64,000 nucleotides of DNA, taken from positions 1-64,000 of the forward strand of contig NZ_JAECZA010000012.1 of assembly GCF_016056275.1 (NCBI RefSeq). The letters run 5' to 3'. This DNA is from Dendronalium phyllosphericum CENA369 (lineage in GTDB: Bacteria; Cyanobacteriota; Cyanobacteriia; Cyanobacteriales; Nostocaceae). Below the pieces are notes generated by a model that worked only from the letters and a program-made list of their open reading frames with translations, was not told the DNA's origin and searched no databases. Positions 5,900 through 56,179 of the stretch are shown in pieces (the stretch's first letter is position 1; each line of letters opens with the position of its first letter). Both the position numbers and the translations under genes were made by a program.

Positions 5900-6092
5900 T
5901 ACGTGCGACTTTTCAAACATCCTCTGAATTTCCACGCTTTTGATTTTTATTCCAGTATTCTGACTTCTGGATTATTCAAGAAGCCTAGGATATTTACTTT
6001 TATAGCCGTAGTTACACTTTTAAGGACAGTTGCGCTCGCTCAAAGGCTTAAAGCAACTGGTTTTTTACTCAGCACTCAGCACATTGCTATAT

Positions 6093-6308
6093 TTAGTGAT
6101 TAGATGATTTCTCCTGCTTGGCTTTTTTAATTACTTCCATGTAGACATTAATCTCATTCACTTCTATATCATGTTCAACTCTAGTTACTTTCCATTGTTC
6201 CTTTTTTAGGTAAACCTCCTCTCCTACTCTGGGAGTGAATTGTATATCGTAGAACTTCTTGAGAAAATCTTTTTGGTTTTCTTCCCATAAGATGACTTTG
6301 TTACTCAT
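6093..6308 (-). CDS. Small conserved-looking protein of unknown function
   Basis: 71 residues, with ATG at 6308 and a purine-rich AAGAGAT stretch just upstream as ribosome site. Composition is mixed alpha/beta with strongly alternating strands (TPRVGEEVYL, QWKVTRVEHDIE, INVYMEVIKK), suggesting a small beta-barrel. No family recognised. It stands alone, and its 5' side faces the divergent kinase gene. Confidence 0.6.
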   Translation of the reverse strand: MSNKVILWEENQKDFLKKFYDIQFTPRVGEEVYLKKEQWKVTRVEHDIEVNEINVYMEVIKKAKQEKSSNH

Positions 6309-6567
6309 GTTTATCTCTTTTTTGCTACTTAATTAAAATCAGTACTTTGATGCATACACATGGTAAGTTTATCTTACTAATTCAATTGAATAGCGTAGTT
6401 AAAACCACATTTTTTACGTTGATATTTTGATGATTTTTTAAGAGCCTCAAAAAAATAATTATCTAATTTTGGTATTTATTCAGCTTTATCTGCTTGGAGT
6501 TAGCAAAGGGGCGATCGCCTGGGAATACTTTATATATAGAAATTGCAACAAATAGTATTAATCTACT

Positions 6568-7917: not shown

Positions 7918-8228
7918 TTTTTGGCAAAATTACTATCTCAATAACACTCGAAAAGATTGTTGAATGAGACGAGTAATAAACCCACTTGCAATACTTATCG
8001 AATTTTTGATAAATTTTATACCTAGAATATTCAAGATAGAGATTATCTTGAAAACAACACATAAACAACGGAAAACACCACAAATCGTTTTACTGTATCT
8101 TGTATACCCATTGACCTTAAATAATCCTTTAGGTATTGTATAAAGTTAACCTATAATGTTTCAAACATCAGGATTTTCTCTGTACATAGGTGTATTTGTG
8201 GTCAATTACGTCTTCTAGGGAAAATAAA
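7918..8228. other. Upstream region of the porin gene
   Basis: A 311-nt spacer that presumably carries the porin promoter and leader. An alternative in-frame TTG/ATG-like extension begins at 8190, but the ribosome site and signal peptide favour 8229. No structured RNA recognised. Confidence 0.4.
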
Positions 8229-39901: not shown

Positions 39902-40218
39902 GATGGGAACCCCTAAATTAGCTAATTAAGTGGTTTATAGTTGACTATTTGTGGAACTGGACAAGACATTCAAGTAGATAGACGAACAAGCTATCTCGAC
40001 AAATGAACTGGGTTTACCCAGCTTTTAACCTATGAATTCTTCAATTAGAAACATTTTAAACTTTTACCTCAAGGCAACTAGTCTGCCTCAGATGCCAGAA
40101 ACACTGGTTATATTATCCTTGTCTCAGGATCGAAGCTAGGTACAACGAAGCGCAAAGTTACCAGCCAAGGATACTGACGAGACAAAGCATTTATCTTAAA
40201 TTATGCTGCTCGTTCAAT
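39902..40218 (-). promoter_or_regulatory. Long leader between riboswitch and first small gene
   Basis: 317 nt. On the minus strand it contains GCTGGGTAAACCCAGTT (a small hairpin) and CTGAGGCAGACTAGTTGCCTTGAGG-like pairing (about 40075-40098), candidates for an expression platform. No ORF longer than a few codons is seen. Confidence 0.35.
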
Positions 40219-40410
40219 CTCCCCTCAATGCCGACGAAGTTAGCTGACGGGCTAGAACTGAGAGATGTTCTTCTCCAGATAATTCCAGCTTTGTGTTTGA
40301 AGTTTATTCTTCGCACCTAAGCTTTGAACTATCTTAGAGATACGCCCCCGATTTGGTTCCTCCGCTCCTTGTTTACTTCCATAGATAAATTTCTTTGAAA
40401 GCAACAATGA
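40219..40410 (-). ncRNA. Putative cyclic-di-AMP riboswitch (ydaO/yuaA type)
   Basis: The minus strand carries the two conserved halves of the ydaO/yuaA class in order. The 5' half is AGCGGAGGAACCAAATCGGG followed by GGCGTATC (about 40370-40338). The 3' half is CCCGTCAGCTAACTTCGTCG followed by GCATTGAGGGGAG (about 40251-40219). These match the class signatures GGAGGAACC...GGGGTxAATC and CCCGxCAGCTAACxxCG..GGC. The intervening ~85 nt would hold the variable P-stems. The class senses c-di-AMP and usually turns expression off. Distal P1 boundaries are approximate. The downstream genes are two tiny unknowns rather than the usual potassium or cell-wall genes. Confidence 0.78.
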
Positions 40411-41743: not shown

Positions 41744-43759
41744 ATGAAGCAATTTACTGTCAACACAACCCTAATGGGCAAAGTAACGGATATTGCAGAG
41801 GAGGAAGGCAAATTTAGTATTAAATGTCGTAGTGGAGATGAATTCCAAGTTGCAGTAGGTAAGGAAACACGATTTCAATTTTTACAAAATTTGGATGGTG
41901 TAAACCGCGATCGCGTCCCAACTCCTGAAAATTTCCATCAGTATTTGCCAGCAGATTTAGTAAGGAAATACATCCAGCCTCATAGCTTAGTAGTCCTACA
42001 AGGGGTATATTTAGAAAATAACGGTAGCTGCCAATATGATGCCCGCATTGTTAACTTACTAAATTCATATAAAGGTCAAGACGAATTAGTTTTTGAGCAG
42101 ACCCACTGGTGGCTAACCCAAATTTCCCGTTTAGCAGATAGTTGGTTAGGCTTTTTATTTCCCAATAAACAAACTTATGAAATCGATGATTTTGCTCTTT
42201 ACCGAACTAACTTAAATATCATCGGTTTACCAACAGATGATGAAATCCAAGAATGTGCTACTCTTTCCAGGCTGATTTATGGTCTTTCCTCTGCTTATTT
42301 ACTAACTGGAGGTGAACGCTATCTTTCAGCTGCTCGTGCTGGAGTTCAATTCCAACGAGAAACTTTTCGTAGTTTAACATCTGATGGCAAACATTGTTTT
42401 TGGGCTTTTGGTAAACGCAAGACGAAGTACAGTTATCAGTTATATATACGCTCTCTCAACGAAGATGATAGAGATACCATCCCACTTTACGAACAAATTT
42501 ACGCCTTAGCCGGATTGGCTCAGTATTATCGAATCACTTTAGATTGGGAAGTACTAGATGATATCAAGCGGACAGTTCGCGTCTTCAATGATTTATTTAC
42601 CGATCCTGAATCAGAGTACGGCAAATATGCTTACGGTGATTATTTTTCACACCTTGATTACGTGACATTAAATTGGGATAGTCCTGCTCTTGGTGATAAC
42701 CAATCCAGAAAAAATTGGAATTCGATTGGCGATCATATCCCGGCATATTTAATTAACGTGATTTTGGCATTAGATCCCTTGCCATTAACCGATCGCGGTC
42801 ACGAAGAAATTGAGGAATTTTTAGCAACCTGCAAAAAGATTCTCAAAACAGCGTCCACAATCATTGTCGAGAAATTTCCCGACCCAGATCCCAGCGTTCC
42901 GTTTGTGAATGAGCGATTTTTGCGGGATTGGAAACCAGACCATAATTGGCGGTGGCAACAAAATCGTGCCGTTGTCGGACACAATTTGAAAATAGCCTGG
43001 AACCTGACTCGTGTTGCTAACTATTATTACTCCTTAGCCGCTCAATCTGCTGTTGATAACGCCCAACAAGCTGAAGAAGCACAACGCTTAGGCGATAAGT
43101 TAATGAAGCTAGCAGACAATTTAGGCATGAAGATGGCAGAGATTGGCGTAGATTTATTTAGGGGTGGAATTTTTGATACTTTAGAACGTAATCCTCAAAA
43201 TGGAACGTCACTGGAATTTCCTTGGTTTAATACTAAAGACTTCTGGCAACAAGAACAAGCCCTATTAGCCTACTTAATTCTTCATGGTTGCAGTAATGAA
43301 AATCATGACCAAAAACAAGAGTATTTACGGTTAGCACGAGAAACTGCCGCATTTTGGAATTTATTCTTTCTTGACCAAGACAATAAAGGAATTTTCTTCC
43401 GAGTTAGTGAAAGTGGCGATGCAATTACTGTAGGGCAGTATGGACAGAAAGGCGGACATGCGATTTCTGGCTACCATGCTTTTGAATTGAATTATTTGGC
43501 TCATATCTATATCAGTACTTATGTGACCAAAGAACCCTTCTGTTTGTATTTCAAACCTAATCCTGATTGTCGAGCGCGATCGCTTAACGTTTTACCTGAT
43601 TTCTTTAGACCCAATGCTTTGCAAGTGACCAGAATCAGTATTGATGGTAGCGATCGCACATCAATAGACCCTGATAATTTCCGCATTGAACTGGGAGAAC
43701 AAGAATTTCAACTTGGTTCAGCAGCAGAAATCATTGTGGAATTTACACCTAAGAGTTAG
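41744..43759 (+). CDS. AGE-family (N-acylglucosamine 2-epimerase-like) protein
   Basis: 671 residues, about 250 more than a plain AGE epimerase. Residues 1-115 form a strand-rich N-terminal module (GKVTDIAEEEGKFSIKCRSG; HSLVVLQGVYLENNG). The rest fits an (alpha/alpha)6 barrel: LSRLIYGLSSAYLLTGGERY, LYEQIYALAGLAQYYRIT, HNLKIAWNLTRVANYY, FPWFNTKDFWQQEQALLAYL, GGHAISGYHAFELNYL. AGE enzymes isomerise or epimerise aldoses through His/Glu residues on this barrel; the exact sugar is unclear. RBS AAGAAGGG lies directly upstream. It is the first gene of a tight 12-gene cluster, 10 nt from the next. Family level is moderately certain, the substrate unknown. Confidence 0.7.
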   Translation: MKQFTVNTTLMGKVTDIAEEEGKFSIKCRSGDEFQVAVGKETRFQFLQNLDGVNRDRVPTPENFHQYLPADLVRKYIQPHSLVVLQGVYLENNGSCQYDARIVNLLNSYKGQDELVFEQTHWWLTQISRLADSWLGFLFPNKQTYEIDDFALYRTNLNIIGLPTDDEIQECATLSRLIYGLSSAYLLTGGERYLSAARAGVQFQRETFRSLTSDGKHCFWAFGKRKTKYSYQLYIRSLNEDDRDTIPLYEQIYALAGLAQYYRITLDWEVLDDIKRTVRVFNDLFTDPESEYGKYAYGDYFSHLDYVTLNWDSPALGDNQSRKNWNSIGDHIPAYLINVILALDPLPLTDRGHEEIEEFLATCKKILKTASTIIVEKFPDPDPSVPFVNERFLRDWKPDHNWRWQQNRAVVGHNLKIAWNLTRVANYYYSLAAQSAVDNAQQAEEAQRLGDKLMKLADNLGMKMAEIGVDLFRGGIFDTLERNPQNGTSLEFPWFNTKDFWQQEQALLAYLILHGCSNENHDQKQEYLRLARETAAFWNLFFLDQDNKGIFFRVSESGDAITVGQYGQKGGHAISGYHAFELNYLAHIYISTYVTKEPFCLYFKPNPDCRARSLNVLPDFFRPNALQVTRISIDGSDRTSIDPDNFRIELGEQEFQLGSAAEIIVEFTPKS

Positions 43760-43769
43760 GTAAGCAGTT

Positions 43770-44432
43770 ATGGCAACCCGAATGCTAGAAGGAAAGAAAG
43801 TCGCCATTCTTGTAGAAAGTGAATTTATTCCAGAGGAAATTGCTGCTTATCAACAACGCTTTGGCGAACTTGGGGCAACTGTAGATTTCATGTCTCGGTT
43901 GTGGGGCAATGAAAGTCTGCGTTTTGTCAGTGATGTTGATGCAGTAGGCAAGTCGTTGAAATACCTAGATGTGAACATTGACTTTCAAAATGTAGACATC
44001 AATGATTATGCTGCTGTGATTGTCTCTGCTGGCTACACCAGTGTACGTCTGCGTTATTTTGAGGCCACAGCAGGTCGTCCCATCAGTTCAGAACAGACTC
44101 GCACTGCACCAGCTGTCCAATTCTTTGCCCAGGCGATGGCAAATCCCAAAATTGTCAAAGGAGCTATTTGTCATGGATTGTGGCTGTTGACACCAATGCC
44201 AGAACTACTGCAAGGACGAAAAGTTATCTGTCACGAAGTTACTCTTGCAGATATTGCTAATGCTGGCGCTGTTTATGTTCCTTCTGCTTCGGGAATTGTT
44301 GTTGATGGTGAATTAGTTACAGGGCGGTCAGGTCATGACGTGGGTGCATTTATCGAAGCGATCGCTCAACTAATTATCCAACAAGATACAGAATCAGTCC
44401 AAAAACAGGAATTTATCGGAGTGACATCGTAA
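43770..44432 (+). CDS. DJ-1/PfpI family protein (first of two in the cluster)
   Basis: 220 residues of the DJ-1/PfpI/class-I glutamine-amidotransferase-like fold. KKVAILVESEFIPEEIAAY holds the early acidic residue; the nucleophile elbow is GAICHGLWLL with Cys near residue 134; the C-terminal VDGELVTGRSGHDVGAFI is typical. The family includes glyoxalases, deglycases, proteases and chaperones, so substrate is open. It is paralogous to the protein at 49416-50045 (shared LWGNxxxxF, ICHGLWLL, LVTGR). Start 10 nt after the epimerase stop; second gene of the cluster. Confidence 0.88.
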   Translation: MATRMLEGKKVAILVESEFIPEEIAAYQQRFGELGATVDFMSRLWGNESLRFVSDVDAVGKSLKYLDVNIDFQNVDINDYAAVIVSAGYTSVRLRYFEATAGRPISSEQTRTAPAVQFFAQAMANPKIVKGAICHGLWLLTPMPELLQGRKVICHEVTLADIANAGAVYVPSASGIVVDGELVTGRSGHDVGAFIEAIAQLIIQQDTESVQKQEFIGVTS

Positions 44433-44448
44433 CTTCAGGAGGAAAGCA

Positions 44449-45354
44449 ATGAGAACAACTAATTATGCACAGCGAGATCGAGCCGCACAAGTAGTTTTTT
44501 ACGTCCCATTGTGGAAGAGAAAGGGAATTTGTTTAGAGTTGTTCGACGATTATTGGCGAAATGTTCACGGCCCAGTCTGCGCCCGCTTACCTGGTCAGTA
44601 CCAATATTGGCAGTTTCATGTGGCTCACAATGAAGGAGGTATCTGGCCTAGCATTGAGGGTATAGACTACAACACACCCGCAGAAGATCAGTTTGATGGG
44701 ATTGCGGAATTAACCTTTAAAACAGTCGCAGATCGTCAGACATGGTTTCAGGCTTCTAGCATTCTTATGGATGACGAGCATAACTTATTTCGCAAGGCGA
44801 TCGGTTATAACACTAATCCTGGTAACTCCATCACCTATGTTGACGGGATTGAAAACGCCACACCTAACGGTTTAGTCGGTGTCGAAAAGTTTCATGTCAT
44901 GTTTAAGAAAGCTGATGACATTAGTGTAGAAGATTTCCGTCAATATCTGCAAGAAAGCTTTGCTTCAGAGTTAGTCAAGAGTGACTTAGTGCTGAAGTTA
45001 CGCATACATTTGTTTGAAGAAGTTGATAATTCTCGTCCCGATGCGGCTGGTGTATCTCATTCTGAACAACCAGAAAAAAACTATCAAGCAGCTTTAGAAA
45101 TTGCCTTTTCTAATCACCTAGAAATGGAACAATTTTTCACTTCCGAAATATACACCACAGCTACACAGTACCAAGCAAAATACGTTAGACAAATTAGCAT
45201 ATTCCCAGAGAGAACAGCTTTTACATTCGTCTATAACAGTCAGATGACACTAGCAGGGCAACGCAGTTCTACAGTTGCTGATTTGATTACAAATATAGGA
45301 GCCATCAATCAGCTTCAAGATGACATTTCTACTTTGATGCTTGGTAAAAGCTAA
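44449..45354 (+). CDS. Tandem EthD-domain protein
   Basis: 301 residues with two EthD-type ferredoxin-like barrels. The first has ICLELFDDYWRNVHGPVCAR and QYWQFHV; the second begins GVEKFHVMFKKADDISVEDF and has its own DLVLKLRIHLFE strand. EthD proteins dimerise into alpha+beta barrels, and relatives act as oxygenases, dehydratases or cyclases on aromatic or polyketide substrates. A fused tandem would be a covalent dimer. A very strong RBS (AGGAGGAAAGCA) precedes the ATG. Third gene of the cluster, its end overlapping a TTG of the next frame. Confidence 0.82.
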   Translation: MRTTNYAQRDRAAQVVFYVPLWKRKGICLELFDDYWRNVHGPVCARLPGQYQYWQFHVAHNEGGIWPSIEGIDYNTPAEDQFDGIAELTFKTVADRQTWFQASSILMDDEHNLFRKAIGYNTNPGNSITYVDGIENATPNGLVGVEKFHVMFKKADDISVEDFRQYLQESFASELVKSDLVLKLRIHLFEEVDNSRPDAAGVSHSEQPEKNYQAALEIAFSNHLEMEQFFTSEIYTTATQYQAKYVRQISIFPERTAFTFVYNSQMTLAGQRSSTVADLITNIGAINQLQDDISTLMLGKS

Positions 45355-45385
45355 TCAAGTTAATGGTTTTTCACAGGACAAAATT

Positions 45386-45745
45386 GTGTCTGAAAATTCT
45401 CTTAAAAAAAACGCAGTCCTTGACGATCGACAACTGCAAGAAAATCTCAAAGCAATCAATCCCAAATTTGGAGATTTTGTGATTCGTGTCGCAGGTGAAG
45501 CTTGGGGTCTACCATTAATCGACCAAAAAACCAAAGCTTTAATTACCATTGCTGTTGATGTAGTGAATCAGGATCGTGTTGGCCCAGGTAATCCCTTTGA
45601 CGCTCATGTTCACATGGCTATGCAGCAAGGCGCTACCCGTGAAGAAATTGAAGAACTACTTTTATTTCTGTGTGTTTACGCGGGATTTAATAAGGCGGCT
45701 GGTTATTTTGGTGCTTTAAATAAAGTTTTAGACAGTGCTAAATAA
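45386..45745 (+). CDS. Carboxymuconolactone-decarboxylase-like protein
   Basis: About 119 residues from GTG 45386, which has ACAGGACA about 8 nt upstream; a longer frame from TTG 45341 overlaps the EthD gene and lacks a good RBS. Core pattern is VAGEAWGLPLIDQKTKALIT, then DAHVHMAMQQGATREEIEEL and a helix LLFLCVYAGFNKA. The family includes the beta-ketoadipate decarboxylase and AhpD peroxidases. The AhpD CxxC is absent, so a decarboxylase or isomerase role is likelier. Fourth gene of the cluster. Confidence 0.83.
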   Translation: MSENSLKKNAVLDDRQLQENLKAINPKFGDFVIRVAGEAWGLPLIDQKTKALITIAVDVVNQDRVGPGNPFDAHVHMAMQQGATREEIEELLLFLCVYAGFNKAAGYFGALNKVLDSAK

Positions 45746-45762
45746 CAAGCTCATGAAGAAGG

Positions 45763-46620
45763 ATGTTCAAATTAGAATCAACTCGAAAATATGGAGTTAC
45801 TTTTTTTATGAACAACAAAAATAATATTAAATCTAATTTTGGAAACTACCTACAAGGAGTACAACATGTTGGTATAACTGTACATAACATGGCTAAATCT
45901 CTGGAATTTTACACAGAGGTATTAGGTGGTAAATTAGTAGTCAGTGGTGATGCATACAGTGGTAAAATTCTACATCACACTCTATTTCAAAAAGAGGAAA
46001 TTGAGGCATTAAACCTAGAACAAAATTCACCATTAATTGAAATCCCTGACATTAGAGATGGTAACAAACAAGTACTAGATATCAGATTTATTTCTTTTGG
46101 AAATATAGCTGTAGAACTATTACATTTTCGAGATGCAAAGCTAACACCTAATGCCCGCAATTGGATTAATCAGCAAACAAAATGTCATTCATCGGAAAAA
46201 ACATGTGTTGCTTATGTTCCTATTATGTATCTTTCGTTTCATGTCAAGGATGATGTTGATTTAAATAAGTTTGCCAAATCCTTAGAAGCAGAATGTAGAA
46301 AAAGGGAAATTGATTTAGTTTGTAACAGAATTATTCATGTAGATTCTGAAGAAGCAAGAAGACAAACTGCTTTTAAGTACACTGCTAATAAATTTTGGTA
46401 TGACCCAGACTACTTTATAGAAGGCTACTCAGATTCAGATTTTGGAGACTTCTATGGTTGGTCATTGTTTTACGCTAAAGGCCCAAACGGAGAGCAACTA
46501 GAATTTAACCAAGTAACTCGCAAAATTAAAGACCTTTTTATTAAAGGTCAAAAGGAATATAACCAAGACTACAGCACAACTTTTAATTGGCCATCAGCCC
46601 TTATTAGCAGCTATCAATAA
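45763..46620 (+). CDS. VOC-family (glyoxalase/dioxygenase-like) protein
   Basis: 285 residues; a second ATG at 45808 may be the real start. LQGVQHVGITVHNMAKSLEF then YTEVLGG is the first VOC motif with a metal His. The mid-region IRFISFGNIAVELLHF-like strand supplies the Glu, and MYLSFHVKDDVDLNKFAKSL begins the second half; FYGWSLFYAKGPNGEQLEFN supplies the terminal Glu. The protein is therefore a two-module VOC enzyme, expected to use a divalent metal for isomerisation, ring opening or epimerisation. Local DNA is more AT-rich than the first four cluster genes. Fifth in the cluster. Confidence 0.85.
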   Translation: MFKLESTRKYGVTFFMNNKNNIKSNFGNYLQGVQHVGITVHNMAKSLEFYTEVLGGKLVVSGDAYSGKILHHTLFQKEEIEALNLEQNSPLIEIPDIRDGNKQVLDIRFISFGNIAVELLHFRDAKLTPNARNWINQQTKCHSSEKTCVAYVPIMYLSFHVKDDVDLNKFAKSLEAECRKREIDLVCNRIIHVDSEEARRQTAFKYTANKFWYDPDYFIEGYSDSDFGDFYGWSLFYAKGPNGEQLEFNQVTRKIKDLFIKGQKEYNQDYSTTFNWPSALISSYQ

Positions 46621-46640
46621 AAAATAATTAATTTTATTTT

Positions 46641-47459
46641 ATGACAGAAATTACAGAAATAAAAAAATGGTCAAAATTTTCTGGTAAAAAAGTAGACATT
46701 TTAAAAAAGCTATTTTTAGCTGGAGAATCGATGAATTTGGATAAATTTGTACAATTCTTTACTGATGATGCTATATACCAGTTCAGCAACTTACCCATAG
46801 TATATGGGCCAGAAGGTATTCGAGATTCTTCTATAGATTTTTTAAAGAAAGTAGAAGGATTGCACCATCATATTAAAAATATTTGGGAACTAAAAAATGA
46901 ATTATTGATCTGCGAAATAGAAGTTACTTATATTCGTCATGACGGTAAAGTATTTACTTTGCCATGCAGTGATATTATTCGATTTACTGGGGACAAAATC
47001 CAGGAAATGTTGATTTATATGAATATTTTTCCAGTTTATATCACACCAGAAACCGAGCAAAAATCACTTACAGACAAAGTATCAAAGATTAACTTAATAG
47101 ATAGAGTTAATAATTTGTTTGCCTTGACTGATGTCAAAATTGAGAATTTTGATCTCAATGCTTATATTTCTTTCTTCACTGAAGATGCTTTTTATCAAGC
47201 TGGTAATGCTAAACCTGTATATGGATATCAAGGGATTAGAGAGTTTTCTGTACCTATCATTCAAAAGTTTAAAAGTTTAGCTCATGAAGTCAAAAACATT
47301 TGGCAATTAGAAAATACGGTTATCTGTCAAGTAGTAGTTATATACAATCGTAAAGACGACAAGGTGTTTAAGCTGCCCACTCTTAATATTATTCAATTTA
47401 GGGGTGACAAAATTAGCTCACTGCAAGCTTTTGGAGACCCTTCTCCTACTTTTTCATGA
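46641..47459 (+). CDS. Tandem SnoaL/NTF2-like protein
   Basis: 272 residues made of two NTF2-fold repeats. Repeat 1 (about 20-130) has DDAIYQFSNLPIVYGPEGIR and HIKNIWEL...LPCSDIIRF; repeat 2 (about 155-270) has EDAFYQAGNAKPVYGYQGIR and EVKNIWQL...LPTLNIIQF. SnoaL-fold enzymes are cyclases, hydroxylases or hydrolases on polyketide or terpenoid substrates, and tandem arrangement suggests a fused dimer. It shares the KNIW and LP...I.F blocks with the next gene, so all three domains look like recent paralogs. AT-rich DNA. Sixth gene of the cluster. Confidence 0.82.
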   Translation: MTEITEIKKWSKFSGKKVDILKKLFLAGESMNLDKFVQFFTDDAIYQFSNLPIVYGPEGIRDSSIDFLKKVEGLHHHIKNIWELKNELLICEIEVTYIRHDGKVFTLPCSDIIRFTGDKIQEMLIYMNIFPVYITPETEQKSLTDKVSKINLIDRVNNLFALTDVKIENFDLNAYISFFTEDAFYQAGNAKPVYGYQGIREFSVPIIQKFKSLAHEVKNIWQLENTVICQVVVIYNRKDDKVFKLPTLNIIQFRGDKISSLQAFGDPSPTFS

Positions 47460-47541
47460 GGATTATTTATTGTCAAAAACATTTAAATTTGTTTCTAGCT
47501 CTTTCTAATACCAGTTGAATCAATTTAAAAGATGGGGATTT

Positions 47542-47958
47542 ATGATTAAACCTGAAAATAATATTTTCCAACAAAATAATAAAGCTAATTTTCCAAATAA
47601 GACTGAACTAGTTAAATATCTTTTGGCAAATTACGATTTAACTAATGAGTATGACATTAGTTATTTTACAGACGATATAGTTTACAGAATAGGAAATATT
47701 GAGCCACTAATTGGTTCAAAGAAAATCTTAGAATTTGGGTTGCGCTTGAAAGATAAAATTGAACATACAAGTCATGAAATTAAGAATATTTGGGAAATAG
47801 AGGATACAGTAATAGTCGAATCAAATGTTATTTTTAAGCCTAAAGAGGGTAATGTGATTCAGCTACCTAATGCCACTATTATTAGATTTCGTGATTATAA
47901 AGTTCGACATTTACAGGCATTTATAGATATTTCTCATATTTTAAATAAAAATATTTGA
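47542..47958 (+). CDS. Single SnoaL/NTF2-like protein
   Basis: 138 residues from ATG 47542, with GGGG about 6 nt upstream; an upstream TTG at 47515 is less likely. YLLANYDLTNEYDISYFTDD, then SHEIKNIWEIEDTVIVES and LPNATIIRFRDYKV clearly repeat the domain of the preceding gene. Small-molecule pocket expected; substrate unknown. Seventh gene of the cluster, within its AT-rich part. Confidence 0.78.
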   Translation: MIKPENNIFQQNNKANFPNKTELVKYLLANYDLTNEYDISYFTDDIVYRIGNIEPLIGSKKILEFGLRLKDKIEHTSHEIKNIWEIEDTVIVESNVIFKPKEGNVIQLPNATIIRFRDYKVRHLQAFIDISHILNKNI

Positions 47959-47991
47959 AAAAATATCATATTTAAAACCTCAATATGGAAG

Positions 47992-48801
47992 ATGTTTATG
48001 TACTTATCTAATGAGTTCACCAATGCTACTCTTAATGGTAATTATTCAGTTGCTATCACTGGGCATAGTGGGCAAGTTCCAGAAGCTGGTGTTGGAATAC
48101 TAAATTTTGATGGTAAAGAAAAAGTTGTTGGTTTTATGATTTTTAATTTGCCTGGACTTTCATTTGGAGAAAGAAGTTTATGTAAATCTTTGTTTGAGGG
48201 AAAATACGCAGTTGATAATAATGGATCTGGCAGTGCTACAGCAAAATTTACTCTCGATGATGGTTCAATTAGTGAAACAAGTTTCATCTTTGTAGTTAAC
48301 ACAATAGAAATAAATAAAGTAGCAAGAGAGGTTTTTTTCATACAAAAAGATTTAACAAAAACTACAGGTAGTCTAATTACATTCGTAATTACTAGGTTGC
48401 CTGAAGAAGGAGAGTTTACACTTGCAAGCTTTAAAGGTACTTTTGCATTCAATGGTATTACACAAGGTTGTCAAATACCTGCTGCTGGCATAGGTACTAT
48501 TACCTTTGATGGTCAAGGCAAATATTCTGGTATAGATATTCTCAATTTTCCAGGAAGTGCTTTTCCAGATAGAAAGATAACCCAATCTCCCTTTGATGGA
48601 ATTTACACAATGAAAGAGCCTGGAATTTATCCTACTATTTCGACTACTACTCAGTCTAAAGCTATTTTCTTAATCACGAAAGCAATGACAATTTCTGGTA
48701 TTAATGTAGCGCAAGAATACTTTTACATTGTGCCCAGTAATAATTTAGAGTTTACTGGAGGAAATTTAGTTATATCTGTTGGTAAAAAAATCTTAGATTA
48801 A
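47992..48801 (+). CDS. Two-repeat beta-rich protein of unknown function
   Basis: 269 residues without a signal peptide. Two copies of a ~125-residue module are visible: one starts NATLNGNYSVAITG and contains AGVGILNFDGKEK; the other starts FKGTFAFNGI and contains AAGIGTITFDGQGKYSG. Each continues with NLPGLSFGER / NFPGSAFPDR. The G.Y.F ... aG.G.l.FDG pattern is a beta-barrel module common in uncharacterised bacterial proteins, perhaps allene-oxide-cyclase/dirigent-like. No family assigned with certainty. Eighth gene of the cluster. Confidence 0.68.
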   Translation: MFMYLSNEFTNATLNGNYSVAITGHSGQVPEAGVGILNFDGKEKVVGFMIFNLPGLSFGERSLCKSLFEGKYAVDNNGSGSATAKFTLDDGSISETSFIFVVNTIEINKVAREVFFIQKDLTKTTGSLITFVITRLPEEGEFTLASFKGTFAFNGITQGCQIPAAGIGTITFDGQGKYSGIDILNFPGSAFPDRKITQSPFDGIYTMKEPGIYPTISTTTQSKAIFLITKAMTISGINVAQEYFYIVPSNNLEFTGGNLVISVGKKILD

Positions 48802-48822
48802 CTAATCGATAAGTATGTAGTT

Positions 48823-49395
48823 ATGAAAAGACGTATTAACTATTATCAGGATTTAGCTGCTAATTATTCAAAACCAGGGCTAGTTTCTCCAGAATTAGCA
48901 GAAAAGCTCATCTTTGAAGCTGAAAAATTTATTTCCTTAAAAGAAGACAATTTTCCAGCAATTACTCCAGATTATCCATTAGAGCAGATTGAACAAGAAA
49001 ATAAAGCATGGTGGCCTACTCATTGTGAAGCTTTGAGACAAGGTAGAGGAGATATTTTAACAGGAGAATACCGCCAAGATTTAGTTTATTTTTGCCAGGA
49101 TGGCCCGTATTACGGTTTAGAAGAACAAAAAGAACGCGAGCAACATTGGTGGGCTTTAATCGCTCAACCTGGCGTAACTATGTGCTGGCCAATTGTCATG
49201 TTTCATGGTGAATTTGTCTGGTTTGAATGGAATTGCCTTGATAATGCAACTAACGAAACAATTGCTAAAGGTAGTGTTGCTTGGTTGCGTCGAGGTCATC
49301 GGGGTGGGTGTTATCTTAAGGGCGAACAACTAACTTTCTATCGTGATGTTTTTGCACCTAATGAACTTTTGAAATTGATGACTACAGCTAAATAA
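48823..49395 (+). CDS. NTF2-like/SnoaL-type protein with N-terminal helical arm
   Basis: 190 residues. The first ~60 are a helical arm (LVSPELAEKLIFEAEKFISL). Then comes GRGDILTGEYRQDLVYFCQD, the NTF2-like entry, followed by strands CWPIVMFHGEFVWFEWNCLD and GSVAWLRRGHRGGCYLKG. The pocket is unusually Trp/Cys-rich. It is not an obvious paralog of the two preceding SnoaL proteins. Function unknown; ninth gene of the cluster, 21 nt ahead of the second DJ-1 gene. Confidence 0.72.
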   Translation: MKRRINYYQDLAANYSKPGLVSPELAEKLIFEAEKFISLKEDNFPAITPDYPLEQIEQENKAWWPTHCEALRQGRGDILTGEYRQDLVYFCQDGPYYGLEEQKEREQHWWALIAQPGVTMCWPIVMFHGEFVWFEWNCLDNATNETIAKGSVAWLRRGHRGGCYLKGEQLTFYRDVFAPNELLKLMTTAK

Positions 49396-49415
49396 ACAAT
49401 TAATGGGGGGATAAT

Positions 49416-50045
49416 ATGACTACTGAAGGTAAAGGCAAAATTGGTGTACTTATTGAAGAGCATTTTGACCCATTGGAATTTCGGTCTTTCAATGAATACT
49501 TTCCTCAACAGGGTTATCAAGTAGAATATATTTCTCATTTATGGGGTAATCCAAACATAAATTTTCACAGCAATTCTGAGGATGGTGTAATTAAAGAACA
49601 CGTAACTGTCACCACAGAAGTTAATGACATTAATCCAACCGATTACAAGGCAATAATTTGTATTGGCGCTTATGCAATGGATCGGCTGAGATATGAGACA
49701 AAGGTGAGAAAGGGTCAACCAAATCAAGCCCCAGCAGTTGTATTTATTCGTAAAGCCATACAAGAACCTCATGTCAAAATAGGAGTGATTTGTCATGGTT
49801 TATGGTTACTTTGTGCTGCTGATGTTTTGGAAAATCGGCGAGTAACTTGCGCTCATAATATTCTGATTGATGTGGAAAATGCTGGGGCTGAGATTATTTA
49901 CGAAAATGATTTAGCTGCTGATATTGTAATTGATGAAAATTTAGTTACAGGTAGACATCCTGACCTGGTAAATAAATTTATGGAAACCTTGATAAGAGAA
50001 ATTGAGAATAAACAGCGCAGCCTCCATGCGGCTATGACTGTTTAA
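49416..50045 (+). CDS. DJ-1/PfpI family protein (second in the cluster)
   Basis: 209 residues, paralogous to the gene at 43770: GKIGVLIEEHFDPLEFRSFN, LWGNPNINF, nucleophile GVICHGLWLL (Cys near 126) and ENLVTGRHPDLVNKFME. The GGGGGGATAAT upstream gives a strong ribosome site. Divergence between the two copies is large, so the duplication is old and the two probably have different substrates. Tenth gene of the cluster. Confidence 0.86.
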   Translation: MTTEGKGKIGVLIEEHFDPLEFRSFNEYFPQQGYQVEYISHLWGNPNINFHSNSEDGVIKEHVTVTTEVNDINPTDYKAIICIGAYAMDRLRYETKVRKGQPNQAPAVVFIRKAIQEPHVKIGVICHGLWLLCAADVLENRRVTCAHNILIDVENAGAEIIYENDLAADIVIDENLVTGRHPDLVNKFMETLIREIENKQRSLHAAMTV

Positions 50046-50082
50046 ATGTTGTAGTTTTGAATGCTCCTAAAGGGATATCAAT

Positions 50083-52608
50083 ATGGCTCAGATTACCGTT
50101 CAGTTTACCTATTTTACAGGTATTAAAAGAGCAATTTTTCACAATCTCCATTTAATTGGAAGTTGGGATGAAAACGGTCGCTATTCTCAACAATGGCGAT
50201 CGCACCAAATGCAGCAAATCATTGCTGAAGATGGCTGTCCTGGTTTCCAAACTACGGTTGAACTTGATGATTTCCAACTTGGTTGGTTATTTCACTGGGG
50301 TGTAATGCTAGATAGTCCAGCCGGAAATAAGTTGTGGGGAATCCCTACAGAGATTAGCGATCGTTCGAATTGCGATCGCTATCGTAGTTTTACGTTACAA
50401 TCTCCTGATAACGGTCAATCTCAACAACAGAGATATTATCTAGTTCATAGCCGCAGACTAGGCGCGCAACCATATTATCTTCCTAGTGAATCTCAGCCTG
50501 CGCTGCGGTTTGCTGTCTGGTCGCCAAATGCCCGTAATGTAGAAGTTGTGTTTGGTAACAGCAGTAGTGGGTATATTGCAGACGATGTTTTTCGAGACGA
50601 TCCTGAGTTTGGCATGAATCCCCACCTGGGGCCATTTCCCATGTTGAGAACAGAAGAAGGGATTTGGCAAACAGATGTGACAATATCACCAGAATTGGCT
50701 GATTTATCCCACTTTGACCATGTTCCTTATATGTTTAGAATTACCAACGAAGGAGGACGGGTAGTTTATCGCACTGATTTGTACTCCCGTTGTCAAATTG
50801 GTAAAGGCAATACCAATCCTGATGGTAAACCTTTCTCTAGTCGATATCAAGATAAATACGCAAGACCTTTTTCAGGAAAATATCAAGATTTAGATGGTAC
50901 TAAAAGCTGTTCTGTAGTCGTCAATCCAGAGACAGTAACTAAACATTTTCAAGAACCAGTCTGGCCAGAACAAGAATTTATCCCAGAACAGGAGTTTTGG
51001 AGTGATGAGTTTTCATTGGAACGCCCTATACCCCAGCGTGTTGAAGATTTAGTGATTTATGAACTTCATGTAGGGTCTTTAGGCTATGGTCGCAATAGAC
51101 CAGGAAACTTTGAGGATGCGATCGCTTTACTACCCTATTTAGTAGACTTAGGAATTAACGCTGTCGAACTCTTACCAATGGCAGAATTTCGAGACAAAGT
51201 AAATTGGGGCTATGAAACATCCCATTACTTTGCTTTGGAATATAGTGCGGGTGGTAGAGACCAACTGAAACATTTCATCAGGGAATGCCATCGTCATGGA
51301 ATTGCCGTGATTTTAGATGTGGTGTACAACCACTTCAATCCTGATGGAGAACGGGCTGAATGGGCATACGACTCGGATATTCCCGAACATAATATCTATT
51401 ACTGGTATGAGGGCAACTCTGGTGATTATTTCTACCCAGACGGCAGACATTTCCCAGAAGGCGGCTATCTTGATAATTGGTCTACTGGTTACGCACCTAG
51501 ATTTCATGAAGAGATGGTGCGGAAAATGTTCGTTAGTAGTGCAGTCACTTTAATGGAAGAGTTTCATGTAGACGGCTTTCGGGTCGATCAAACAACTTCA
51601 ATGCACTCGTATAACCAGCTGCACGCTGATGGTAGACCTATTAGTAATGCCAATATTTTTGGTGCTAAATTCCTCAGAGAATGGACAAGGACAATAAAGC
51701 AGATCCGACCAAATGCCCTGCTAATCGCAGAAGACCATTCTGATTGGGATAAAGTTACTGAATCACCTGATGTTGGTGGTTTGGGCTTTGATGCAGCTTG
51801 GTATGCCAATTTCTATCACCATTTAATTGGTGATGCTAGACAAGGAACCGAATATGCCAAATTAATTCCTACTGCTGGATATGGTACGAATGAACCTCTA
51901 GCAATGGATAAATTTGCTGGGGCTTTAGGATGGTCTGGTCATAAAAAGGTGGTCTATCATGAATCCCATGACGAAGCAGGCAACTCTTATTTTAAGGAAG
52001 GAAACCATAGAATTGAATCGCGGCGCACGATTGTAGCAGCAGCCAACGCAGCACCCTTGATTGGAGACACTCGACGTTATGCGGAAGCGCGTTGCCGCTT
52101 TGCGTTTGGTATGTCTATTTTGTCGGCTGGTACACCAATGTTTTTGATGGGTGAGGAAATTGGCGCACAAAAACCCTACAGATTCAGCGATTTTATGGAT
52201 AATCGAGAGGATTTGTTAAGCGATCGCCAAACTCATGGTCAAAGATTATTCCAATTTTACCAAGACCTGATTCAGATGCGACGCAACCATTCCGGACTGC
52301 GATCGCACTTGATTGATATTCTCTCTGTGCACAATGCCAACCGAGTTATTGCTTTCAGACGTTGGGATATAAATGAAGAATTTTTAGTTGTAGCTAGTTT
52401 GAATAATCAGTCCTTTTCCTTTGGTTACACTATTAACAATTCCCGAATCGAAGATGGTCAGTGGCGCGAGATTTTTAATAGTGATGCTTCACTCTACGGA
52501 GGAAATAGTGTAGGCAACTTTGGATTTGATATATTTGCAGCTAATGGATATATTAATCCCATAGTTCCGGCAAACGGATTTGTTGTTTTCCAACGGCAAA
52601 GTACATAA
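50083..52608 (+). CDS. GH13 alpha-amylase-superfamily glucan enzyme (branching-enzyme-like)
   Basis: 841 residues. An N-terminal strand-rich module (about 1-125, LIGSWDENGRYSQQW) resembles a starch-binding CBM20/48. A CBM48-like domain follows (RFAVWSPNARNVEVVFG), then the GH13 barrel: ILDVVYNHFNPDG (region I), VDGFRVDQTTS (region II, nucleophile Asp), LLIAEDHSDWD (region III, acid Glu) and VYHESHDEAGN (region IV, Asp). The C-terminal all-beta domain is present. The layout resembles GlgB or trehalohydrolase (GH13_8-10) proteins; exact transglycosylation versus hydrolysis is unsettled. It is 37 nt after the DJ-1 gene and part of the same cluster, which ties the cluster to glucan or trehalose chemistry. 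Confidence 0.85.
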   Translation: MAQITVQFTYFTGIKRAIFHNLHLIGSWDENGRYSQQWRSHQMQQIIAEDGCPGFQTTVELDDFQLGWLFHWGVMLDSPAGNKLWGIPTEISDRSNCDRYRSFTLQSPDNGQSQQQRYYLVHSRRLGAQPYYLPSESQPALRFAVWSPNARNVEVVFGNSSSGYIADDVFRDDPEFGMNPHLGPFPMLRTEEGIWQTDVTISPELADLSHFDHVPYMFRITNEGGRVVYRTDLYSRCQIGKGNTNPDGKPFSSRYQDKYARPFSGKYQDLDGTKSCSVVVNPETVTKHFQEPVWPEQEFIPEQEFWSDEFSLERPIPQRVEDLVIYELHVGSLGYGRNRPGNFEDAIALLPYLVDLGINAVELLPMAEFRDKVNWGYETSHYFALEYSAGGRDQLKHFIRECHRHGIAVILDVVYNHFNPDGERAEWAYDSDIPEHNIYYWYEGNSGDYFYPDGRHFPEGGYLDNWSTGYAPRFHEEMVRKMFVSSAVTLMEEFHVDGFRVDQTTSMHSYNQLHADGRPISNANIFGAKFLREWTRTIKQIRPNALLIAEDHSDWDKVTESPDVGGLGFDAAWYANFYHHLIGDARQGTEYAKLIPTAGYGTNEPLAMDKFAGALGWSGHKKVVYHESHDEAGNSYFKEGNHRIESRRTIVAAANAAPLIGDTRRYAEARCRFAFGMSILSAGTPMFLMGEEIGAQKPYRFSDFMDNREDLLSDRQTHGQRLFQFYQDLIQMRRNHSGLRSHLIDILSVHNANRVIAFRRWDINEEFLVVASLNNQSFSFGYTINNSRIEDGQWREIFNSDASLYGGNSVGNFGFDIFAANGYINPIVPANGFVVFQRQST

Positions 52609-52761
52609 TACTGTTAGCTACAAATAGCAAGCAGGGAAAGCATCAGAAATCATTTTTAACTTTGATTGATAATTTGGTAAATGTTTGTTTTTTGACTTTC
52701 AGCCAAAGAAAATACTGATTTTTTTGGCTGCCACTTCATATACATTTTTTCCAGATGTAAT

Positions 52762-53643
52762 ATGTGTCAAATTGTGCAAGATAAACTCTACAACGTTTCA
52801 AACGCACGCGCCCGCCTAGGTGAAGGCCCAATCTGGAATATTAACGAACAATTACTTTACTGGGTTGATATCTATAATTACCGAGTGCATCAGTTTCATC
52901 CTGCTAGTGGAAAAAATGTGTTTTTTGATGTAGGAGATGTAGTAGGAGCGATCGCTCTTGCAGGAAAAAATCAATTGATTATGGCGCAACGCCATCATTT
53001 AGCATTTCTCGATACTCAAACAGGTATAGTCACGCCAATTGTTGAGCTTGAAACTGATTTGCCAGATAACCGTTGTAATGATGGTAAATGCGATCCTCAA
53101 GGTCGTTTTTGGTTTGGCTCTATGTCTTCTTCAGGAAAAGCTGAAGCTAGCCTCTATCGCTATGACTCTGATGGCTCATTACATACAATGGAAACAGAAC
53201 TGACTGTTGCCAATGGTTTAGGGTGGAGTCCCGATCGCAAAACATTTTACTTGACAGATTCTCCACAACAAAAAATATATGCTTACGACTTTGATGGAAC
53301 CACAGGTAATATTAGCAACCGCCGCATTTTTGTGGATTTAATGGGTGAGTCTTTCTTCCCCGATGGCTTGACTATAGATAGTCAGGGATATATCTGGTCA
53401 GCAATGTGGAATGGATGGTGCGTGATTCGTTTTAGCCCAGAAGGTAAAGAGATTTTTCGGTTACACCTATCAGTACCACTTGTCACCAGCTGCACCTTTG
53501 GAGGCGAGAATTTAGATATACTTTATATCACCACTGCCTCGGTTGGTCTTAGTCAAAAAGAAATCGAAAAAAGTTTTTACTCTGGTGATTTGTTTGCTTT
53601 TAAAACAGATGTTACTGGATTGTTAACTTATGACTTTAACTGA
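52762..53643 (+). CDS. SMP-30/gluconolactonase/LRE family lactonase
   Basis: 293 residues, six-bladed beta-propeller. Metal ligands are visible as Glu in ARLGEGPIWNI (about 20), Asn in LPDNRCNDGKCD, Asn in VANGLGWSPD and Asp in SFFPDGLTID. The family hydrolyses sugar lactones (gluconolactone, L-arabinono-lactone), an expected partner for sugar-epimerising or oxidising enzymes. It lies 153 nt after the GH13 gene, the largest gap in the cluster, so it may have its own promoter. Followed by a strong hairpin. Confidence 0.9.
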   Translation: MCQIVQDKLYNVSNARARLGEGPIWNINEQLLYWVDIYNYRVHQFHPASGKNVFFDVGDVVGAIALAGKNQLIMAQRHHLAFLDTQTGIVTPIVELETDLPDNRCNDGKCDPQGRFWFGSMSSSGKAEASLYRYDSDGSLHTMETELTVANGLGWSPDRKTFYLTDSPQQKIYAYDFDGTTGNISNRRIFVDLMGESFFPDGLTIDSQGYIWSAMWNGWCVIRFSPEGKEIFRLHLSVPLVTSCTFGGENLDILYITTASVGLSQKEIEKSFYSGDLFAFKTDVTGLLTYDFN

Positions 53644-53747: not shown

Positions 53748-53990
53748 TTAAACTCTTACATTTACATAACGAGCAGGAACTCGGACTTTAACCCACTTGT
53801 TACCGCGTCGTACTGTTTCCCAATGTGCAGGAATTAGCTTCCGTTGAATTCGTTTAACAACAGGTTTATGCACAATAGCAACTTTATGAACATTAGGTCT
53901 AACAATGACCTCTGCTGCTGATGCCTGTGATGGTAAAGCAGAAATTGCAAATGGCAAAGCAAGTAATGTACCTAATAGAATACGTTTCAT
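53748..53990 (-). CDS. Small secreted basic protein
   Basis: 80 residues from ATG 53990 (AAAGG about 8 nt upstream); an extra TTG codon pair at 53996 is not needed. A signal peptide (ILLGTLLALPFAISALPSQA) ends at an Ala-x-Ala-like SQASAAE site. The mature ~52 residues are Lys/Arg/Val-rich (HKPVVKRIQRKLIPAHWETV) with a WETVRRGNKWVKVRVP segment reminiscent of small outer-envelope proteins. Function unknown. Confidence 0.72.
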   Translation of the reverse strand: MKRILLGTLLALPFAISALPSQASAAEVIVRPNVHKVAIVHKPVVKRIQRKLIPAHWETVRRGNKWVKVRVPARYVNVRV

Positions 53991-54480
53991 GTTCAAACCT
54001 TTATCAATTTATTTGCTTGAGTTTTTAGAGCATTTATTAATTCATAACGAACATCTATGCTTACTTAATCTTGATGATTACAGTAACTTCTGCTCGTATC
54101 ATGATTAATTTATTTTGCTCTGTTGTTCTCAGTTTAAAATACTAAATCATCAGATACATGGTAATAAAGTCATAATTTCGGTATGACTTTATTCATATTC
54201 AGCAATTCCAAATTGCACCATCATCTGATGTGAAGTCGTCAACATGATATCCTGCATTCCTGATGGTATGCTTTGAAGGGCGTTGTGCAAAGGGCAGAAG
54301 CAGAGGCGAAGAGGCGATCGCTTAACAACCAGTGCTGGACTATTCTCTATTTCTGGCTCCTACATTTTTATATACAGCTTACACAGCCTAACAACAGGGC
54401 GTTACATAAATGCCGGATGAATTGGCGATTGAAAGCATTGAAAATTCTTTGCAAATACGACAATAGATTTAATTCCAATA
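53991..54480. other. Spacer, mostly without recognised genes
   Basis: 490 nt upstream of both the secreted protein and two small plus-strand frames. A frame open from 54273 runs into the 54481 gene, but its first part is Arg/Trp/Leu-rich and not protein-like. Confidence 0.4.
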
Positions 54481-54617
54481 TGTCTGACGATAGAAGACTT
54501 ATAGGGAAAGATAAAGCTAATTATTTTATAGAATCAGCAAATAAATTGGATGAATTAAGTAGAGATGAATATACAAATTCAACATTTATTAATACAAGCA
54601 ATGGCAAACTCTCTTGA
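54481..54617 (+). CDS. Possible small protein, 45 residues
   Basis: ATG at 54481, in the frame open from 54273. MSDDRRLIGKDKANYFIESA then NKLDELSRDEYTNSTF is a believable small acidic/basic protein. It overlaps the start of the next frame by 17 nt, a pairing typical of coupled small genes. No ribosome site is evident, so weakly supported. Confidence 0.35.
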
Positions 54618-54786
54618 CGAACCATTAATTGATTGGCAAGCAGAAAACCTGCTAAAGATATTAGTATTTGTTGTCATATTTGGAATAGCAGTTGCAATTA
54701 ATATTATTAGTAAAAAAGTGGAACACGCTATTGCATTTGCTTTCATCTGCACAATCATTGCTGGGGCTTTTTTGATAATTAAATAA
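54601..54786 (+). CDS. Possible small membrane protein, 61 residues
   Basis: From ATG 54601; a start at 54565 is also open. MANSLDEPLIDWQAENLLKI leads into two hydrophobic segments (LVFVVIFGIAVAINII, HAIAFAFICTIIAGAFLII) split by a short KKVE loop. Together with the overlapping acidic/basic frame it resembles a small two-gene unit; I do not recognise it. No clear SD. Confidence 0.45.
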   Translation: MANSLDEPLIDWQAENLLKILVFVVIFGIAVAINIISKKVEHAIAFAFICTIIAGAFLIIK

Positions 54787-54987
54787 TCTTATGCCAATTC
54801 ACTATTTGAAATCTTGAATCTATGACAGTAGCAATGGCGAGGGTGGCGTTCTGATTGCTACTGCGACAATAAGCTATTAACGAAGGCAGGGGGCAGGAGG
54901 CAGGAGGTCGTTTTTGTAACGAGGATTTATACCCCGTTCCAAAAACTTTTCGCCTTTTAAGGCGAGGTTTTAGACCCGATTGTTTCG
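54787..54987. other. Spacer with a CRISPR-unrelated hairpin
   Basis: 201 nt with G-rich GGCAGGAGGCAGGAGG repeats (about 54885-54908) and an ATACCCC...CGAGG stretch. It abuts MITE copy 3. Confidence 0.4.
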
Positions 54988-55084
54988 ATAATCATTCAAA
55001 TTGCATCCCCACGTCTCCCCTTCTCCGCGTCTCCGCGTCTTTACTAAAGCAAAGGATTGTGCAACTTCAAGGCAGATTAGCTTA
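54988..55084 (-). mobile_element. MITE-like element, copy 3 (reverse, one end decayed)
   Basis: On the minus strand it reads TAAGCTAATCTGCCTTGAAG ... GGGGATGCAATTTGAATGAT, matching copies 1 and 2. Its interior carries GACGCGGAGACGCGGAG-type tandem repeat instead of the copy 1 insert. The outer terminal repeat survives only at the 55084 end; the other end reads TATCGAAACA and no longer matches. Confidence 0.65.
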
Positions 55085-55088
55085 ACTA

Positions 55089-55973
55089 CTATAAGGGATT
55101 AGCCTCTGTAACCACTTCTGGCAGTGGAATGAACTCTGTTTCATCTGGCACAGTAACAAAGCGGCTGTCGCGCCAATCGGCTTTTGCTTGCTCTATTCGC
55201 TCTGGTCGGCTAGAGACAAAATTCCACCATTTGTAGCGCTTACCCAATGGCTCGCCGCCAATCACAATACACCGAGCAGCGGTAGCAGCAGAAACCTCAA
55301 TTTCATGATATGGCTCTAGGATGGCGAGGCGATGTGCCTCTAGCGGTTCATCATTAATGCTCAATCCCTCTGTGACACTGTATACTGCTATCTCTGAATA
55401 ACCCGCGGGAATAGTGAAGCGAGCATTGGCAGATAATACCCCATCTAAATAGAGGATGGGTGAAAAAACTTTAACAGGTGAAGTATAACCATATGCTTCT
55501 CCAGCAATGAGTTTGATGACAACGCCGTTCTCTTCCCAGGTAGGAAGGGTTTGAGCAGGATAATGAATAAACCAAGGATCGGTTTCTTCATGTTCAATCG
55601 GCAAAGCAATCCAGGTTTGAATCCCATGAATGGTGGCTTCCCTGTGACGGTCAAAGTTGGGCGATCGCTCTGAGTGTACAATTCCCTTTCCCGCCGTCAT
55701 CCAGTTTACTGCACCCGGTTGAATCTCCTGTACAGTACCTAAACTATCGCGATGCATTAAAGCACCATCAAATAAATAAGTTAGCGTTGCAAGATTGATA
55801 TGAGGATGCGGTCGTACATCAATGCCTTTGTTGACTGGCAAAACAGACGGCCCAAGATGGTCGAAAAAAATAAACGGCCCGACCATTTGGCGATTAGGAT
55901 ATGGCAAACTGCGGCGGGCAACAAACCCACCCAAGTCTTTTACTTCAGGTTCAATTAGTTGAACTATTTTCAT
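55089..55973 (-). CDS. Pirin family bicupin
   Basis: 294 residues, two cupin barrels. The N-terminal pirin block has FIFFDHLGP and VRPHPHINLATLTYLFDG, which carries the metal His pair, then GKGIVHSE with a further His and Glu. The second cupin runs from about 160 (FSPILYLDGVLSANARFTIP). Bacterial pirins include quercetinases and regulators of metabolic enzymes. No partner is adjacent. ATG at 55973. Its 3' end is 4 nt from MITE copy 3. Confidence 0.93.
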   Translation of the reverse strand: MKIVQLIEPEVKDLGGFVARRSLPYPNRQMVGPFIFFDHLGPSVLPVNKGIDVRPHPHINLATLTYLFDGALMHRDSLGTVQEIQPGAVNWMTAGKGIVHSERSPNFDRHREATIHGIQTWIALPIEHEETDPWFIHYPAQTLPTWEENGVVIKLIAGEAYGYTSPVKVFSPILYLDGVLSANARFTIPAGYSEIAVYSVTEGLSINDEPLEAHRLAILEPYHEIEVSAATAARCIVIGGEPLGKRYKWWNFVSSRPERIEQAKADWRDSRFVTVPDETEFIPLPEVVTEANPL

Positions 55974-56179
55974 AAATCATGGGGGGTAATTGGTAAATGC
56001 TGGAATCATTATAAATAGATTCGCCTGAAAAAAAGTTAACCTTTTTTTGCAGCCTATAAAGAAGCTTATGTAATATTTGTCATCGGTTGGGAATGATAGA
56101 TATTGCATATAACCCCCAGAAAATACTTATGATCTATGCGTTCGCCAGGAAACTGCACCAATTTCTTGCTACTGGGAAG

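Follow-up and report, generated by a model that had tools for sequence, protein, structure and literature searches.

A twelve-gene run in Dendronalium phyllosphericum with a core of icfG type

The icfG operon of Synechocystis sp. PCC 6803 (slr1852-slr1862) is the closest described relative of the gene run reported here. In the excerpts of the literature on which we draw, slr1852-1862 appears as a salt-repressed operon with the epimerase slr1855, the anti-sigma antagonist slr1856, a glycogen enzyme and IcfG (PMC8670252), and slr1853 is named CMD (PMC3564720); within these excerpts the enzymes carry annotations but no pathway, while the signalling half is studied. The run in question consists of 12 co-directional plus-strand open reading frames (ORFs; g1-g12) spanning 41744-53643 of a 64,000-nt stretch of Dendronalium phyllosphericum CENA369 (contig NZ_JAECZA010000012.1, 1-64,000), hereafter the window; the genome of CENA369 is referred to as the own genome. 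In our tentative reading the run is related to the metabolic half of icfG-type loci, as a diverged form without regulators; it would be a glucan-sugar locus that supplies an exchangeable pathway. Comparison with relatives demonstrates, at the sequence level, that the frame is fixed, that interiors are swapped and genes fused, and that the window has no signalling genes.

A preliminary description, made without database searches, had listed twelve plus-strand genes mostly 10-40 nt apart, and the ORF list and the measured gaps bear this out. Calculated with the likely starts of g4 (GTG 45386) and g7 (ATG 47541), the gaps from g1 to g12 are 10, 16, 31, 17, 20, 81, 33, 21, 20, 37 and 153 nt; the widest separate g6 from g7 (81 nt) and g11 from g12 (153 nt), and the others measure 10-37 nt. 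ORF lengths were counted from the first ATG, GTG or TTG after a stop. The family assignments of the same description hold for the nine proteins named by Pfam (g2, g3, g4, g5, g6, g7, g10, g11 and g12) and, through structure models, for g1 (AGE) and g9 (NTF2-like). The Pfam scan of the 12 proteins returned no match for g1, g8 or g9, and g8 stays without an assignment.

g1, 41744..43759, plus strand: AGE-fold sugar 2-epimerase/isomerase-like protein, 671 aa (model and fold match)
g2, 43770..44432, plus strand: DJ-1/PfpI protein (DJ1a), member of the conserved frame (PF01965)
g3, 44449..45354, plus strand: EthD-domain protein, 301 aa (PF07110)
g4, 45386..45745, plus strand: carboxymuconolactone-decarboxylase-like (CMD) protein (PF02627)
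g5, 45763..46620, plus strand: VOC/glyoxalase-superfamily protein (PF00903)
g6, 46641..47459, plus strand: tandem SnoaL_2 protein (PF12680, two stretches)
g7, 47541..47958, plus strand: single SnoaL_2 protein (PF12680; ORF listed from TTG 47515)
g8, 47992..48801, plus strand: orphan protein, 269 aa (no Pfam match)
g9, 48823..49395, plus strand: NTF2/SnoaL-fold protein, hallmark of the icfG-type neighbourhood (model and fold match)
g10, 49416..50045, plus strand: DJ-1/PfpI protein (DJ1b), icfG-type DJ-1 (PF01965)
g11, 50083..52608, plus strand: GH13 protein of 841 aa (Pfam alpha-amylase), similar to branching enzyme and TreZ but distinct from GlgX; closes the frame on the 3' side
g12, 52762..53643, plus strand: SMP-30/gluconolactonase-like protein (PF08450, SGL, E 9.5e-87)

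The icfG operon and its expanded relatives

Synechocystis salina LEGE 00031 carries the gene order NTF2-CMD-DJ1-AGE-STAS-GlgX-STAS-phosphatase-kinase, which matches slr1852-1862 as given in PMC8670252, PMC12329169 and PMC3564720. Because of this match the core of the window run is, judged by its gene content, of icfG type. The NTF2-like gene would be slr1852 and the DJ-1 gene slr1854, an assignment supported by the S. salina order. Going by the cited papers and the S. salina order, NTF2-like, CMD, DJ-1 and AGE-type genes stand together with a GH13 gene in one run in the icfG operon; the window likewise unites NTF2, CMD, DJ-1 and AGE in one run, in a different order with AGE first. Unlike the operon, the window adds EthD, VOC, SnoaL, g8 and SMP-30, its g11 is not the isoamylase-type debranching enzyme GlgX, and its AGE lies on a separate deep branch. 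The signalling genes are missing as well: Pfam gave no match to STAS, SpoIIE/PP2C phosphatase or RsbW-like kinase among the 12 genes (g1, g8 and g9 match nothing), and one representative query for each found no match at E 1e-4 in the rest of the window. The window run is thus icfG-related, yet not an icfG operon; as a natural regulator-free variant, it could allow the metabolic half to be assayed alone.

The own genome also holds an icfG-type locus on contig C307 (locus L041), with STAS, AGE and GlgX (708 bits against a cut-off of 640.9), where a MinD/ParA-like ATPase and a CHAT-domain protein follow GlgX (5977-8250 of stretch L201) in place of the icfG phosphatase and kinase. In another expanded locus, on plasmid pNOS3756_1 of Nostoc sp. 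NIES-3756 (L214), genes for STAS, an ATP-binding protein and a PP2C phosphatase lie upstream; its far end is made up of AGE, STAS and GlgX. Like the window, both bring CMD, EthD, NTF2, DJ-1 and AGE together in one run, interspersed with VOC and SnoaL/NTF2-type genes; they differ from it in keeping STAS and GlgX, in the fusion of EthD with NTF2 (L041) and in added SDR, aldose-1-epimerase-like/DUF4432, NHL and NmrA genes. The NHL-repeat protein at 10743-11900 of L041 weakly matches ScyE/ScyF of the scytonemin cluster, below cut-off; L214 also encodes NHL-repeat proteins. A literature search by family names found no publication on expanded, fused or cassette forms.

Recurrence and fusion of the families

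Co-occurrence was followed with two baits. EthD (g3) was searched in 243 genomes of the order and matched in 30, the own genome included, 26 of them strongly. The four weak genomes (G051, G068, G188 and G208) were left out of the neighbourhood comparison, and an NTF2-like gene adjoins EthD in 21 of the 26 that are left. The cluster of G159 is split across contig ends, with VOC, SnoaL, DJ-1 and AGE pieces.

The second bait, the g9 alignment, gave 135 NTF2 loci in named genomes; the following counts refer to the best 80 of the 135, with complete flanks in 51. The counts are not independent, since several loci share a genome according to their titles (L060/L071, L079/L133, L105/L114, L117/L118, L116/L127 and L082/L101) and many of the records also figure among the genomes of the EthD and family searches. 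The metabolic partners near NTF2 are DJ-1 (64 of 80), CMD (62), AGE (58), any GH13 (42), EthD (39), SnoaL (30) and VOC (28). Beyond the families listed in the preliminary description, the recurrent neighbours include STAS proteins (42), a SpoIIE/HAMP phosphatase (SpoIIE-type, 29) and a small HATPase kinase (RsbW-like, 21), each searched with one representative query. The loci with full flanks show DJ-1 in 44 of 51, AGE 43, CMD 42, GH13 33, STAS 32, phosphatase 21 and kinase 14. Eighteen of the 80 loci bear non-cyanobacterial record titles, most of them marked as metagenome-assembled genomes (Paenibacillus agilis N4 being an exception) and thus open to misbinning; among the eighteen, DJ-1 occurs in 11, AGE in 9, CMD in 8 and the phosphatase in 8, and all five core families (NTF2, CMD, DJ-1, AGE and GH13) in three, with parts in more. 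A phylum sample yielded NTF2 in 25 of 386 genomes, and 17 further NTF2 stretches from it include CMD in 14, DJ-1 in 13 and AGE in 12. NTF2 relatives also sit on five plasmid records, and a Gloeocapsopsis dulcis plasmid carries GlgX, AGE, NTF2, CMD and DJ-1.

Many of the families are joined in single polypeptides. CMD-EthD-VOC-SnoaL forms one open frame in 19 of the 80 NTF2 loci (for example, 842 aa in L032 and 1189 aa in L043), a fusion of EthD with NTF2 is seen in 27, and one of VOC with EthD in 23. Because relatives fuse them, a joint function of EthD, CMD, VOC and SnoaL is probable. Given that the families recur with both baits and are fused repeatedly, chance is an unlikely explanation of the run, and a chance patchwork was set aside given the fusions and the recurrence across phyla.

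The preliminary description had proposed a self-contained pathway for a polysaccharide-derived sugar, to be abandoned if homologs proved scattered and never co-occurring; across both baits the families instead form a recurring neighbourhood. Its link to sugar and glucan also stands, through the AGE fold and the GH13 frame in window-type loci and through GlgX in icfG-type relatives. The lack of a regulator holds for the window, but neither it nor 'self-contained' is supported for the wider system, given the STAS, phosphatase and kinase counts above and the known icfG operon. Since about half of the relatives have STAS beside the block, and fewer the phosphatase and kinase, their block is probably under carbon or stress control; this holds for the relatives, the signalling genes being absent from the window.

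Next to the NTF2 core, L092, L096, L097, L102, L104, L107 and L112 (Calothrix/Rivularia/Richelia) share an ORF family whose L104 member Pfam identifies as a tyrosinase. A Gloeothece PCC 7822 plasmid (L213) carries a CMD-NTF2-EthD block and CDGSH genes near a halogenase, a 4-HPA 3-monooxygenase, a KAS III and a ThDP enzyme.

The frame and what it encloses

Relatives of g11 occur in 11 of 217 genomes of the family including the own, the ten others at 64-87% identity (E <= 1e-60); in a 377-genome phylum sample (E <= 1e-40) only one 35% partial match was found beyond the own genome. The resulting 11 loci, window included, share a frame with AGE-DJ1a at the 5' end and GH13 at the 3' end. DJ1a is present in all ten other loci (L202-L211) and AGE in nine, with AGE, DJ1a and GH13 at 60-91% identity; the stretch of L202 ends before AGE, that of L203 cuts it, the AGE of L208 is a 93-residue remnant and that of L206 matches from residue 125. 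What the frame encloses differs. EthD-type interiors are found in L204, L206, L209 and the degraded L208, and that of L209 consists of fused EthD-VOC, SnoaL, CMD, NTF2 and DJ1b. In contrast to the window, L202, L203, L205 and L207 enclose a ThiJ-ThDP-GMC interior, which in L203 is extended by a 232-aa EthD, a second GMC oxidoreductase, two alpha/beta hydrolases and a KSI/SnoaL protein, and L210 and L211 have no interior at all. The DJ1a of these two minimal loci (L210 9407-11125, L211 9696-11417) is a 573-aa ORF, with a C-terminal ankyrin-repeat part in the L210 copy.

A loose co-location of genes, a patchwork without a shared pathway kept together by operon transfer, would fit this patchy presence (g11 in 11 of 217 family genomes, NTF2 in 25 of 386 phylum genomes), the plasmid copies, the variable interior and the restriction of g8 to the window. 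We consider it very unlikely, given that the same families are fused repeatedly, that they recur across phyla and that the frame is kept in 11 loci.

The g1 protein matched no family in Pfam or NCBIfam, the curated sequence-family score not being reached. Its AF2 model, built from 42 rows (pLDDT 85.3), has the AGE fold at residues ~104-599: AGE, CE and mannose isomerase structures match with Z 28.6-34.5 over 368-400 residues, the best being 5x32 (Z 34.5), and non-AGE families start at Z 23.0 and below. With the AGE superfamily (glucose/cellobiose 2-epimerase, mannose isomerase) g1 thus shares the fold, the GH motif His and the W-Q-Q-E motif; it differs in lacking a Pfam match, in K416 at the position of the motif Glu and in added N-terminal (~1-110) and C-terminal (~600-671) parts, which are beta-strand-rich and lie outside most structure matches. 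H413 is invariant across the 42 aligned rows and aligns with the GH motif of solved AGEs; H572 and H578 are invariant as well, but lie beyond the alignments to solved AGEs. In the AGE tree, which like the NTF2 tree is a quick tree with a midpoint root, g1 and five frame-type AGEs form one side of a long branch (SH-aLRT 100), and the icfG-type AGEs of cyanobacteria and other phyla, that of C307 included, lie on the opposite side. On this separation g1 was rejected as a recent duplicate of the C307 AGE.

The GH13 protein g11 scores far under the cut-offs of the NCBIfam equivalogs GlgB (181.3 bits, cut-off 741) and TreZ, malto-oligosyltrehalose trehalohydrolase (174.6, cut-off 538.8), and of GlgX TIGR02100 (94.5, cut-off 640.9), which rules it out as GlgX, GlgB or TreZ proper. 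Of its GH13 catalytic regions, GFRVD aligns to GIRVD and IAED to IAEE of solved GlgB; the third, HESHDE, was read in the ORF only and not from an alignment. That g11 might be Lti2 was an assumption of ours, since dropped; the literature gave nothing useful for it.

Among the interior proteins, the AF2 model of g9 (49 rows, pLDDT 90.6) matches SnoaL/NTF2 structures, the best being 7e85 (E 6.8e-7, TMt 0.71, TMq 0.44). The protein is 58-93% identical to the 48 other aligned members and falls among the icfG-type NTF2 proteins in the NTF2 tree. The likely GTG start of g4 gives 119 aa, the same as the L204 ORF, and a longer TTG start at 45341 would overlap g3; its identity is 31-89% to relatives in NTF2 loci and 81-87% in EthD-type frame loci. 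The identity of g10 to the DJ-1 of relatives is 49-90%, and the DJ-1 assignments of g2 and g10 are at family level only, below the PfpI cut-offs. No full-length relative of g8 was found in the 217 family genomes, and weak partial matches occur in 5 of the 216 other genomes.

From family knowledge, g11 would act on an alpha-glucan (glycogen or maltodextrin) and AGE would epimerise or isomerise the released reducing sugar. The interior cassette, here EthD, CMD, VOC, SnoaL, NTF2 and the second DJ-1, would reshape a sugar-derived carbonyl with small, cofactor-poor enzymes that isomerise, cyclise or decarboxylate it. Reactive dicarbonyls would be cleared by DJ-1, and a lactone would be opened by SMP-30; relatives fuse the cassette families into one or two long polypeptides.

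The same enzymes would also suit a detoxification locus, in which AGE, two DJ-1 proteins, VOC and GH13 limit reducing-sugar and dicarbonyl damage in glycogen turnover or desiccation, the cassette scavenges further reactive carbonyls and nothing is made. Two DJ-1 proteins and a VOC protein do stand in one run, and the icfG operon is salt-repressed and tied to carbon regulation (PMC8670252, PMC12329169). The alternative cassette, with its ThDP enzyme, GMC oxidoreductases and, in L203, alpha/beta hydrolases, however, resembles a pathway more than a set of scavengers, and the DJ-1 calls reach only the family level; we hold this explanation to be rather unlikely. The swapping of two different enzyme sets inside one fixed frame could also speak for a secondary metabolite cluster, with AGE-DJ1-GH13 as a sugar-donor module and the interior tailoring different cores in each strain, and the tyrosinase-like gene at seven loci and the neighbours of the Gloeothece plasmid block point the same way. 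This we judge unlikely: Pfam finds no glycosyltransferase, carrier protein, transporter or export gene among the 12 genes, and much of the core is also present in distant organisms, according to record titles such as Paenibacillus and Accumulibacter.

Several observations weigh against our preferred reading of the run as a diverged relative of the icfG-type metabolic half. NTF2 is absent from the EthD-type locus L206, and L208 is degraded. Window-type VOC and SnoaL occur in 2 of the 11 frame loci (window and L209), SMP-30 follows GH13 in 2 (window and L203, the latter at 87% identity) and g8 is confined to the window, so these genes may have joined the run late. Because K416 replaces the Glu of the GHxxE motif in 70 of 70 aligned g1 members, ordinary AGE chemistry of g1 is not assured, and g11 stays below the curated cut-off of every NCBIfam model among the matches listed. 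Four genus-g45 genomes have EthD (40-45% identity) without the cluster, L114, L117 and L127 of the 80 NTF2 loci show none of the partners within the stretches covered, and L182 of the phylum sample, without CMD, DJ-1 or AGE, has nearly none.

The comparison sets a core (NTF2, CMD, DJ-1, AGE and GH13) apart from exchangeable additions. A more specific proposal, which we regard as rather doubtful, is a modular type of locus in which fixed sugar-enzyme arms (AGE-DJ1 and a GH13 under the tested family cut-offs) hold exchangeable interior pathways, one of them the disassembled counterpart of the CMD-EthD-VOC-SnoaL multienzyme polypeptide found in icfG-type loci. Such a locus would make an undescribed glucan-derived metabolite that, in icfG-type loci, would report carbon status to the STAS/phosphatase/kinase switch.

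Upstream region and flanks

The 799-nt region upstream of the run, from which tight control had been supposed, contains no ORF of 80 aa or more. Six upstream regions were aligned, leaving out L205 (31 nt available) and loci whose AGE start is truncated or damaged, and the six share no conserved element. On these six sequences a conserved upstream control element was rejected, and the idea of tight control lacks support.

No relative of any of the 12 proteins was found at E 1e-4 in the other parts of the 64-kb window. A c-di-AMP riboswitch (RF00379, 52.2 bits) lies on the minus strand at 40214-40391, ~1.4 kb before the cluster. The 3' flank (53748-57286), outside the conserved run, holds a small minus-strand ORF, a pirin-family gene on the minus strand and a solute-binding/ligand-gated-channel-like gene on the plus strand.

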